A stretch of 64,000 bases of DNA from Candidatus Nitrosocosmicus agrestis (GTDB taxonomy: Archaea > Thermoproteota > Nitrososphaeria > Nitrososphaerales > Nitrososphaeraceae). The first letter of the stretch is position 1, and every line of letters starts with the position of its first letter. The position numbers were made by a program, and so were the translations under genes. The stretch lies in the NCBI RefSeq assembly GCF_008389435.1, contig NZ_VUYS01000004.1, forward strand, positions 124,001-188,000, written 5' to 3'. Shown here piece by piece: positions 30,741 to 62,936 of this stretch. The notes beneath the pieces were generated by a model. That model made no database searches. It was given only the letters and a program-made list of their open reading frames with translations, and was not told where the DNA came from.

Positions 30741-32072
30741 ATGTCACCAAGGATCGAGAAAAAAAATATTGTAATTTTGGGAGGTGGATTTGGAGGAATC
30801 GGAGTATTAAAAGACCTTCAGAAAGAATTCAACAATAATGAAAACGTACAAATAACATTAGTAAGTGACAACAATTTTCTGCTTTTTACCCCAATGCTCC
30901 CCGAAATAGTATCAGGTACGATAGAAAGCAGACATATTGTAACTCCCATTAGATCATTTTGCAAGAACTCGAGGTTTTATGAAGCACAAGTTAAATCCTT
31001 AGACTTCACCCAAAAACTAGTTACCATAAGTCATAATATAGGAAGACACGATGTTGAAACTGACAAAATACATGAGCATATAATTAATTATGATTGTTTG
31101 GTTATAGCTTTAGGTAGCGAAGACAATTTTTTTGGTAATTCAAATATTCAAAAATACGGCTTTACATTAAAAACAATCGAGGATGCAATAAATCTGCGCA
31201 ACCACATTATTAAAGTATTAGAACAAGCGGTAATTGAGCAATCTGATTCTGTATTAAGAAAGGCCCTATTAACGTTTGTTGTGGTTGGCGGAGGATTCAG
31301 CGGGGTTGAAACTGTTGGAGCAATTAACGATTTTGTACGCGAATCGGTCAAAAAATATTATCCAGACTTGTACATGACAGATATAAGGATTGCTTTGGTC
31401 AGTGCAACTGACAAAATTTTAGAGCAAATTGATGAAGAATTAGGTGAATTTGCTTTACAGAAATTAAAAGCAAACGGAGTTGAATTTATTATGAACTCAA
31501 AGGTAAAAGATGTGACAATAGAAAATGCTTTACTAGACGACAATACATCCATTCCATGTTATTCGGTAATATGGACGGCAGGGGTAGCACCCAATCATAT
31601 AATAACCAATCTCACGTGTGAACACGATAAAAGACACAGAATAATTACGAACAGTCATTTGGAAGTAAAAGGACTAGAAGATATTGTATATGCACTAGGA
31701 GACTGTGCATCCATTATAAATCCCAACACAGGTAAACCGTATCCACCAACAGCACAGCATGCAATAAGACAAAGTGAGATAGTATCTTATAATGTTGCAT
31801 CGTTTATTAAAAAGAAAATAAATGGAAAAAATGATAGGAATCATAGAAAAAAGGAATTCAATTACAATACAAAGGGAATGATGGCTCAAATTGGTAAAAG
31901 GACAGGAGTTGCAATCCTTTTTGGCAAAATAAAGATCCACGGTTTTTTAGCCTGGTGGCTGTGGCGTTCTTATTATTTGCTAAATTTACCTTCCTCAAAA
32001 AAGAAAATTAAAGTAATGGGTGACTGGACTTTTGATTTGGTCTTTAAACCAGACGTAAGTCAGATACATTAA
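30741..32072 (+). CDS. ndh: Type II NADH dehydrogenase (NDH-2)
   Basis: Membrane-associated flavoprotein passing electrons from NADH to quinone without pumping protons. 443 residues. FAD-binding loop IVILGGGFGGIGVLKDL near the start, NADH-binding loop FVVVGGGFSGVETVGAI in the middle, YALGDCAS near the end, and the quinone-site block PPTAQHAIRQSEIV. The C-terminal part (FGKIKIHGFLAWWLWRSYYL) is the amphipathic membrane anchor usual for NDH-2. In this cluster it would re-oxidise NADH made by the two dehydrogenases upstream. Confidence 0.93.
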   Translation: MSPRIEKKNIVILGGGFGGIGVLKDLQKEFNNNENVQITLVSDNNFLLFTPMLPEIVSGTIESRHIVTPIRSFCKNSRFYEAQVKSLDFTQKLVTISHNIGRHDVETDKIHEHIINYDCLVIALGSEDNFFGNSNIQKYGFTLKTIEDAINLRNHIIKVLEQAVIEQSDSVLRKALLTFVVVGGGFSGVETVGAINDFVRESVKKYYPDLYMTDIRIALVSATDKILEQIDEELGEFALQKLKANGVEFIMNSKVKDVTIENALLDDNTSIPCYSVIWTAGVAPNHIITNLTCEHDKRHRIITNSHLEVKGLEDIVYALGDCASIINPNTGKPYPPTAQHAIRQSEIVSYNVASFIKKKINGKNDRNHRKKEFNYNTKGMMAQIGKRTGVAILFGKIKIHGFLAWWLWRSYYLLNLPSSKKKIKVMGDWTFDLVFKPDVSQIH

Positions 32073-50977: not shown

Positions 50978-52644
50978 TTACCAAATAGAAGATGATTTTC
51001 CTACATAGTGTACTACTTTTGGTGTCGGGCAATCCTTAATAAGGTCACTGATCTTATTTTCCATTACCTGAATATTCTTGGTAACAAATTCATGTTGACG
51101 CATATGGTCGGTCCAAGTATCGGCTATTCTGATTTCTATATAGTGACCCATGTCAGTCGGATCTTGGAATAATTCCCAGTAGGCCATTCCCTCGCTCTTT
51201 AGCAGACATCCTAATTCGCGTGTAATTTGCTCGAATCCTGCAGAAATGTTGGAATTGATACTACTATACTCTATTGTTATAAGAGCCTGATTTTTGTATT
51301 CCGAAGGCTCGATAGAATGTTGAGGAGGAAGTGGCCAGTGGTCGCTAACCGGTGTAAAATCAAGGTTATCCAACGATGTACTGTTATAATGTTTCTTTGT
51401 CAGTATAGTTGCAACCAAAGAAATAGCAGCCAAAGAAAGAGTAACCGGTATTCCAATCTCGTTTGCCACCGCTCCCCAAATTACACTTCCTATTGCTAAT
51501 CCACCATTTAGTATCAGAAGATAAATTGCTAGGACCCTAGCACCTATCCATTTTGGTGCAGATTTTGCCCCTATAGTATAAAATGTTGAAAGTATTGTAA
51601 TATGTGCCGCACCCCCTAGAGCCATAAGCAAGCAAAGAATCCCAAAATCTTGTATATACCCTACTGAAAATGTGACCATAGAGAGTAATGCGATGGATCC
51701 AATTATCATTGATTCAACCGAGACCTTTGGGCGCAACCTTGGTAAAAACTCAATTCCTCCAATTACAGCACCCATTCCAAATGATCCTAACAGCATTCCA
51801 AACCCGGTTGAATCAAAACCCAATTCATATTTAGCAAAATACGGTAATAAAGACAATAATGCACTGCTACATAATGTAAACAAACCTGCTCGGACAATCA
51901 ATACTCACGAAGCTCGAGAATAGCGAATGTAGCGTATCTGAACACGAATAGCTCTTATCAAATTCTCTTGAGGCAATGAAGTTTGACTCTGATTTTCACT
52001 AAGGTCATTGCTGGATGCTACAGGCTTTTTGGCCAATCTCCTTAGTACAATGATCATTACGATAAAAGAGACTGAATTGAGAAAAAATACTGCCCAAGGT
52101 GCAATAGCAGCCACCAAAAAACCTCCAATGGTTGGTCCGATAACTCGACCTATGTTTCCTCCCAATGCACTGAGGGTAAGCGCCGCAGGTAGTTCGGATC
52201 TTGGTACCAGTCCACTCAGCATAGGGATAATGGGAGTTCTTATCATAGTCATCCCAGCTCCTAGTGCAAAAGTTAGCATAAGTAGTATTGTGGATGTAAT
52301 AATTCCTGCCATAGTAAGAATTCCTAGTATGGCAGATATGATAGACATATATCCACATGTAATTAGCAATATCACACGTTTATCAAAAATGTCAGACAAG
52401 ATCCCAGACGGTAATGCAAGTAGGAAAATAGGTAATGTAGTGGCGGTAGTAATAAGTGAGACAAACAGCGGATCTGAGGAAATAGAAGCCATTAGCCATG
52501 ATGCTCCTACTTCATACATTGCAGCACCAACATAAGAAAAAAGGGCAGCAACCCATAACGACCATACATAGATGATTTGAAAGGACTTAGTCCTGACTGC
52601 GATGGTTTCTTACTCTCTTCATTTAACCCACCTTTTCTACCCAT
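50978..52644 (-). pseudogene. MFS_3-type exporter with C-terminal monooxygenase-like domain, broken
   Basis: ATG 52644 starts a hydrophilic leader (MGRKGGLNEESKKPSQSG), then a frameshift near 52570 is needed to reach FQIIYVWSLWVAALFSYVGA and AMYEVGASWLMASISSDPLF. The frame then runs to TGA at 51905-51907 (after IRYIRYSRAS) and continues in the same frame with VLIVRAGLFTLCSSALLSLL to 50978. Together about 11-12 membrane helices of a PF05977-type major facilitator plus a C-terminal ferredoxin-like domain (QALITIEYSSINSNISAGFE ... MRQHEFVTKNIQVMENKI) as in many of these exporters. One frameshift and one nonsense codon. Confidence 0.85.
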
Positions 52645-61524: not shown

Positions 61525-62628
61525 TTATTTTTTCATTTCTATTTTTCTAGCTTTTCTTCCTGAAAGTACAATTTTTTGTTTGACAAGATCACTTGCTATG
61601 ATTATTCTAGCCATTTCTACACTTCTCCTAGCCAAATCCTTTGCGCCTTCTTTTAAATCACTACTATTCTCAACATCGGAGATATTATTTTCCATATCTT
61701 CTGCAGACCACCCTCTAGAATGAGCGATGAACGGGAATTGAGGAAATAGGAAACCAAGTTCTGCAAAAAAGCCAAGCATGTGGCCAGCAACATCCTGAAC
61801 GTTATCCTGACCACCAGTTATAATAAAGGAGGCTATCTTATTCTTGATAAGGATTTTATTTCTGACGGTGATTTGATTCTGAATACAATTTAGTCGTTCA
61901 GCCATTTTATAATACAGTGAACTTGCCGCACCCCACCGAATTGGAGTTGACAAAATAATGACATCAGCCCAATGGACAAGTGCTTCGTAAACCTTATCCA
62001 ATTGATCATTAGAATCCATTTGTGTAATAGAGCATGGCCAAGTACAAGCTTGGGCACTTTTAGAATAATAACCCTCACAGCTTTTAAAGTTCAGATCATT
62101 TAAGCTTATCAACATAGTATTGCAATTCAAATCATTTTTTGCATATTCTAAGGCAATTTTGAGCAATTTTTCAGAGGTTGAATATCGGGGATTCTGTTTG
62201 TCCATTATTGTGGTAGAGATACCTACTACCCTAATAGGACCAGAGGTACGTACAGGTTCTCTAGATATAGGATGAGAAGGATGTGGTAGTTTATTTCGAG
62301 TTGTAGTAGGATTGAGATCGATGTATAAATCATTCTTCTCGATTTTAAGCCTATAACGAGGAACTCTATCATCTTCAAATCCAGGCTCGCCAAATCCAGT
62401 TATTCGATGAAATTTCCAGTTATGCCAAGGACACACCACATAATCTTCAGATAATTTCCCTTTTCCTAAGGGCCCTCCCAAGTGATTGCAAATATTAGAA
62501 ATAGCACCAAATTTTTCATCACAAAAAGACAAAGCAATGGTAAGTTTGTCATTGATCTTAATTTCTCTAAGAGATGGATCCTTAAAATCGTCGACTGTCC
62601 CTAACTTATACCAATTTTCGCCACTCAT
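61525..62628 (-). CDS. Rieske [2Fe-2S] - flavodoxin/NADPH-FMN reductase fusion
   Basis: 367 residues, two domains. Residues 1-107: Rieske ferredoxin, with ligands Cys47-His49 in CNHLGGPLG and Cys66-His69 in CPWHNWKFH. Linker 108-130 is Pro/Arg/Thr rich. Residues 131-310: flavodoxin-like NADPH-dependent FMN reductase, starting IRVVGISTTIMDKQNPRYST with the Ser/Thr phosphate loop, VIILSTPIRWGAASSLYYKM as the FMN-ring loop, and ASFIITGGQDNVQD. C-terminal tail basic. A single chain that could move electrons from NAD(P)H via FMN to the Rieske cluster and on to an oxygenase or other partner. No oxygenase gene is near. ATG 62628 start. Confidence 0.88.
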   Translation of the reverse strand: MSGENWYKLGTVDDFKDPSLREIKINDKLTIALSFCDEKFGAISNICNHLGGPLGKGKLSEDYVVCPWHNWKFHRITGFGEPGFEDDRVPRYRLKIEKNDLYIDLNPTTTRNKLPHPSHPISREPVRTSGPIRVVGISTTIMDKQNPRYSTSEKLLKIALEYAKNDLNCNTMLISLNDLNFKSCEGYYSKSAQACTWPCSITQMDSNDQLDKVYEALVHWADVIILSTPIRWGAASSLYYKMAERLNCIQNQITVRNKILIKNKIASFIITGGQDNVQDVAGHMLGFFAELGFLFPQFPFIAHSRGWSAEDMENNISDVENSSDLKEGAKDLARRSVEMARIIIASDLVKQKIVLSGRKARKIEMKK

Positions 62629-62936
62629 ATAGTAATATCATATCTTAATCAAAGTACTTTATTTAAGAATTGAACAAAACTTGACAACTTTGATGTGATC
62701 ATTTTGTTCTTAAAAGGGATATTAAACTTTAACAAAATGCCTCATTTAATTCAAATAACAGGTACAAATAGAATCGCAATTCATTAATCAAAATCAAAAA
62801 ACGAACTATGAGGAGAGTGTATCAAAAGACCAAAAAGAATATTATAAGTTTCTTCTTGCAGTCATGTAAGAAAAGATATGTGCATCACCATTATTGTTCT
62901 TAAAATCAATAATCAACCATACCTAATTATCTATGA
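62629..62936. other. Intergenic
   Basis: 308 bp, nothing besides the presumed promoter of the fusion gene. Confidence 0.45.

Follow-up and report, generated by a model that had tools for sequence, protein, structure and literature searches.

The closest described counterparts of the protein reported here are redox proteins of several kinds. The ferredoxins of Rieske-type dioxygenases (CarAc, 1vck; the NDO ferredoxin, 2qpz; 5bok) are soluble proteins with a four-ligand Rieske motif, and the PF03358 FMN reductases, WrbA and AzoR are built on a flavodoxin-like fold with FMN-binding loops. The iron-sulfur flavoproteins (Isf) of methanogens carry an FMN domain and an Fe-S cluster in one chain and have a compact CX2CX2CX4-7C motif. 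RosB (8-demethyl-8-aminoriboflavin-5'-phosphate synthase, 5mji), also flavodoxin-like, turns FMN into an amino derivative (PMC11039241). Finally, Fre has been proposed as the electron donor to MsrQ, and in this pair as in bacterial NOX a cytosolic flavin reductase feeds a ferric-reductase-type membrane haem domain (PMC5676040).

We analysed a 64-kb stretch of DNA from Candidatus Nitrosocosmicus agrestis (hereafter the window), which belongs to a 3.2 Mb genome with an assembly that is 98.9% complete. A single intact ORF with an ATG start (61525..62628, on the minus strand, as are all features of this gene given below) encodes a protein of 367 aa. Consistent with the initial annotation, which had described a Rieske cluster and an FMN reductase in one chain, Pfam identifies a Rieske domain at residues 5-76 (PF00355, E 5.4e-13, 49.1 bits vs a curated cut-off of 20.3) and an FMN_red domain at residues 150-296 (PF03358, E 4.8e-9, 36.4 bits vs a curated cut-off of 24). 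The two domains are matched in 63/63 and 62/63 alignment members, respectively, and the protein scores above no NCBIfam cut-off. The gene is surrounded by a short-chain dehydrogenase gene on the opposite strand and a gene for a DUF2299 protein upstream, with no conserved neighbours found and no sign of an operon. By inspection of the sequence, a TATA-box-like TTAAATAAAG (62657..62666) lies 29-38 nt before the start codon and is consistent with a monocistronic archaeal transcript. A PF01613 flavin reductase adjoins the fusion gene in Nitrosocosmicus relatives and was considered as a local partner; it was rejected because its homologue in this genome lies on another contig (C18).

The Rieske [2Fe-2S] domain covers residues 1-107 (62308..62628), supported by Pfam, ligand conservation and Foldseek. 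All four ligands (C47, H49, C66 and H69) are present, as the initial annotation had stated, and are invariant in the 68 aligned homologues. An inter-domain linker follows at about residues 108-130 (62239..62307, from the model and the alignment), in which little secondary structure is predicted between E100-107 and E133-138 and whose length differs across the alignment. The flavodoxin-like FMN_red domain occupies about residues 131-345 (61594..62238), and its FMN loops, likewise reported previously, are borne out by the PF03358 match, the fold match and invariant residues. The putative FMN phosphate-binding loop STTIMDKQNPRYSTS (residues 138-152, 62173..62217), assigned this role from the fold, contains invariant R148 and S152 and almost invariant T139, T140 and S150. 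I230, R231, W232, G233 and L238 are invariant in a putative second FMN loop TPIRWGAASSLYYKM (residues 228-242, 61903..61947), as are G272, G273, Q274, D275, N276 and Q278 in a putative third, TGGQDNVQ (residues 271-278, 61795..61818). Together with the Rieske ligands, the residues kept in 68/68 aligned sequences include C184, C195, D205, D208, R231, W232, R245, N247, N251 and G273-N276. For the fusion, dN is 0.12-0.26; dS could not be computed, presumably because of saturation, and no dN/dS ratio was obtained.

The flavin domain also contains a conserved cysteine stretch, CEGYYSK-x4-ACTWPC (C184, C195 and C199; 62032..62079), recognised in the homologue alignment, and a fourth almost invariant cysteine, C248 (61885..61887). 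C199 and C248 are each kept in 67/68 aligned homologues, and the CEG-x8-C-x3-C pattern is found in 95/96 extracted fusions. The cysteines of the methanogen Isf lie in the region corresponding to this stretch. However, the compact Isf motif is absent from the fusion, which instead has CX10CX3C and a Rieske domain. The extra invariant cysteines and the Rieske domain also set the fusion apart from the PF03358 reductases, WrbA and AzoR, with which it shares the flavodoxin-like fold and the FMN loops.

An AlphaFold2 model of the fusion (mean pLDDT 86.8, pTM 0.80), in which two ten-residue blocks of the cysteine stretch have pLDDT 69 and 72, was compared with solved structures using Foldseek. The top PDB match is RosB (5mji, E 2.7e-11), followed by Rieske ferredoxins and then by AzoR, WrbA and similar enzymes. 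These matches divide between the two halves of the protein, the N-terminal half matching CarAc and other Rieske ferredoxins and the C-terminal half matching RosB, AzoR and WrbA, with NQO2 also listed. RosB is the nearest solved flavodoxin-like domain by sequence as well as by fold: it gives the best sequence match in the PDB to the flavin-domain profile (E 1.6e-7), the HMM alignment covering residues 79-159 of its 257, and the Foldseek alignment extends over 257 columns (TM 0.65 by target length). RosB, however, is without a Rieske domain, and its specialised C-terminus was not recognised in the fusion.

In 84,980 species genomes scanned, 449 relatives were found. The best 80 of these are all full-length fusions (57-80% identical) from archaea as well as some ten phyla of bacteria. 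The groups represented are Nitrososphaerota, Nitrospirota, Planctomycetota, Acidobacteriota, Verrucomicrobiota, Gemmatimonadota, Pseudomonadota, KSB1, Lentisphaerota and Kiritimatiellota. The full fusion, including the Rieske motif, is conserved in 96/96 extracted homologous ORFs, which excludes chance as its source. Matches were found in 19/61 genomes of close relatives (E <= 1e-20), 13/397 genomes of a phylum sample (E <= 1e-30) and 11/297 Acidobacteriota genomes (E <= 1e-60). Among plasmids, one full-length fusion occurs in Methylocystis sp. MJC1 (58% identical), and the other plasmid matches listed are 20-26% identical, mostly over the flavin domain. Phages gave a single weak match to the Rieske region, and viral contigs gave no match.

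A second fusion of 398 aa is encoded on contig 14 of the same genome and is 50% identical to the window protein over residues 26-321. In the tree, the archaeal clade containing the window protein (clade A) is set apart by a branch with 100% SH-aLRT and is placed among bacterial sequences; the clade containing the paralogue (clade B) lies far from clade A and is purely archaeal in the sample. Clade A stays together in a tree of the Rieske domain only, which does not resolve one from separate fusion events for the two archaeal clades and leaves the relation of clades A and B to the Rieske domains of the ferric-reductase (FRD) membrane proteins described below unsettled.

The most economical reading of the fusion is that of an NAD(P)H-FMN-Rieske electron donor. 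We consider it probable that the protein is a soluble oxidoreductase passing single electrons to lineage-specific acceptors, which in several bacterial lineages would be the FRD-Rieske protein. The flavodoxin-like domain would bind FMN, to which NAD(P)H would donate a hydride, and the flavin would then split the hydride pair into single electrons for the N-terminal Rieske [2Fe-2S] cluster, so that the chain might act as the self-contained NAD(P)H-FMN-[2Fe-2S] wire suggested by the initial annotation. The Rieske half has its nearest matches among soluble Rieske ferredoxins that transfer electrons, and it may dock on a one-electron acceptor in their manner. This resemblance, which extends to the ferredoxins of naphthalene and toluene dioxygenases as well as to the fold and four-ligand motif of CarAc, would also be expected if the fusion served as dedicated donor to a Rieske non-haem iron oxygenase whose gene lies elsewhere in the genome. 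In contrast to CarAc and the NDO ferredoxin, however, the Rieske domain of the window protein is fused to a flavin domain, and no partner oxygenase alpha subunit for a Rieske electron-transfer role was found in the genome. Eight Rieske matches occur in all, including the window fusion and its paralogue, and five of them sit in small frames of 101-216 aa. Beyond the window fusion, its paralogue and a Rieske-FNR protein, none is of oxygenase size, and none of the eight looks like an oxygenase as judged by ORF length and content. Since there is no oxygenase near the window gene either, as had been noted at the outset, a dedicated oxygenase donor appears extremely unlikely.

A second alternative places the main activity in the flavin domain, as a reductase of the WrbA/AzoR/NQO type that detoxifies quinones or electrophiles; it would mainly reduce quinones directly by two electrons, with the Rieske domain tuning or regulating the flavin. 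The Foldseek matches to WrbA, AzoR and NQO2 are compatible with this possibility, as are the fusion neighbours in Nitrospira loci (pirin, DsbA, VOC/glyoxalase and SnoaL genes) and in one Nitrosopumilus locus (L044), where pirin lies near the fusion with an HxlR-type regulator in between. Yet WrbA, AzoR and NQO enzymes require no Rieske cluster, whereas the Rieske ligands of the fusion are invariant, and the neighbour set comes mostly from Nitrospira and may reflect mere shared descent. We therefore regard this alternative as unlikely. The relationship to RosB raises a further point: because RosB modifies FMN, the flavin domain of the fusion could have chemistry beyond electron transfer, and a reductase role is accordingly likely rather than proven. 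Carried to its conclusion, the RosB match in sequence and overall fold would make the fusion a flavin-modifying enzyme with FMN as its substrate and the Rieske domain giving or removing electrons. We consider this very unlikely, given that the sequence likeness is limited to RosB residues 79-159, that no flavin-biosynthesis gene is present among the neighbours scanned, and that the specialised C-terminus of RosB has been reported from a few Streptomyces only (PMC11039241).

Returning to the NAD(P)H-FMN-Rieske electron donor, a candidate acceptor is found in bacteria. Near the fusion, loci of KSB1, Verrucomicrobiota, Lentisphaerota, Acidobacteriota and Pseudomonadota encode a membrane protein that joins an MsrQ-like ferric-reductase domain to a Rieske domain at its C-terminus (FRD-Rieske). 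By tblastn of the flanks, it is present in 8/86 loci (L049, L052, L067, L076, L087, L089, L101 and L118), in arrangements that vary: immediately upstream in the same orientation, upstream beyond an intervening gene, downstream, or on the opposite strand. In L076 and L101, the FRD-Rieske gene is 12-13 bp upstream of the fusion on the same strand. A full-length FRD-Rieske protein is encoded in 15 of the 45 fusion-bearing genomes examined, including all eight linked ones, so that about half of the genomes having this protein show the linkage. Across 297 Acidobacteriota, the two occur together in 5 genomes vs about 1.1 expected (Fisher p = 0.002); after removal of four genomes picked for carrying the fusion, the co-occurrence is 2/7 vs 24/286 and is not significant (p = 0.12). 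In one Acidobacteriota genome (G595), the two genes are about 0.8 kb apart.

That an FRD-Rieske gene lies close to the fusion at eight loci in bacteria of several phyla suggests a Rieske-to-Rieske hand-off into the membrane, and makes its product a plausible bacterial acceptor of the fusion's electrons. For several bacterial lineages, this linked membrane protein, which combines an MsrQ/ferric-reductase haem domain with a Rieske domain, would be the most likely acceptor, and electrons would move from one Rieske cluster to the other, on to haem and out across the membrane. The bacterial gene pair is similar to Fre-MsrQ and NOX (PMC5676040), but differs in that both partners bear Rieske domains. 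Most fusion genomes examined, including those of Nitrospira and archaea, are without an FRD-Rieske protein, which is therefore not a universal partner. The source archaeon has no such membrane protein, and its genome contains no match to PF01794 (Ferric_reduct). With no FRD-Rieske protein and no oxygenase among the Rieske matches, the electron acceptor in the archaeon, which the initial annotation had rightly left open, would have to be some other carrier or a small molecule. A bolder proposal, which we put forward only tentatively, is that the fusion and the FRD-Rieske protein form an undescribed two-part system for transmembrane electron export in bacteria, operating by transfer between the two Rieske domains, with C184, C195, C199 and C248 holding a further metal or Fe-S centre that would make the soluble partner a three-centre wire.

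Both modules are already known. Within the reach of our searches, the family that fuses them and carries the extra cysteines is unnamed and uncharacterised. One homologue is annotated merely as 'Rieske 2Fe-2S domain-containing protein', and a search of open-licence papers found nothing relevant on the Rieske-FMN_red architecture. The initial annotation had considered that this could be a common known architecture with an established function. Common it is, occurring in hundreds of genomes of archaea and bacteria, but because the papers searched gave no established function for it, that objection falls away. The fusion is a strongly conserved redox protein found in archaea that oxidise ammonia, in nitrite-oxidising Nitrospira and in many further bacteria. 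Treating it as one named family, defined by its invariant residues and with a candidate partner in the membrane, makes its function directly testable and could uncover an electron-transfer route common to nitrifiers of both domains.

Several further observations were made at these loci. Near the fusion, L049 (7163-7981) encodes a small protein that has a hydrophobic N-terminal stretch and the conserved motif GEIVDSxC[YF]xGVMxPG...HxxCAIRCISGG, with homologues in L052, L067, L071, L087 and L118. This small membrane protein has no Pfam or NCBIfam match, and five of its six loci also have the FRD-Rieske gene. In two homologues from different genera (L033 in G033 and L038 in G002), the fusion is split at the same site, after TPIRWG, where the G run is one base longer (GGGGG vs GGGG); these splits are probably homopolymer errors. 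In a clade B homologue (L028), the Rieske and FMN parts lie in two overlapping frames around the linker, representing either a frameshift or a natural split.

Three other genes of the source genome deserve mention. On contig 6 (L011, 1483-2589), a Rieske domain is joined to an apparent FNR-like reductase in a protein of 368 aa, the genome's second type of one-chain Rieske reductase. Within the window, a type II NADH dehydrogenase-like gene with Pyr_redox_2 and NDH2_C domains is located at 30741-32072 on the plus strand. At 50978-52519 on the minus strand, one MFS_3 transporter frame is broken by a single in-frame TGA (51905-51907) into two halves covering MFS_3 positions 29-218 and 224-519, and is either a pseudogene or the product of a sequence error.
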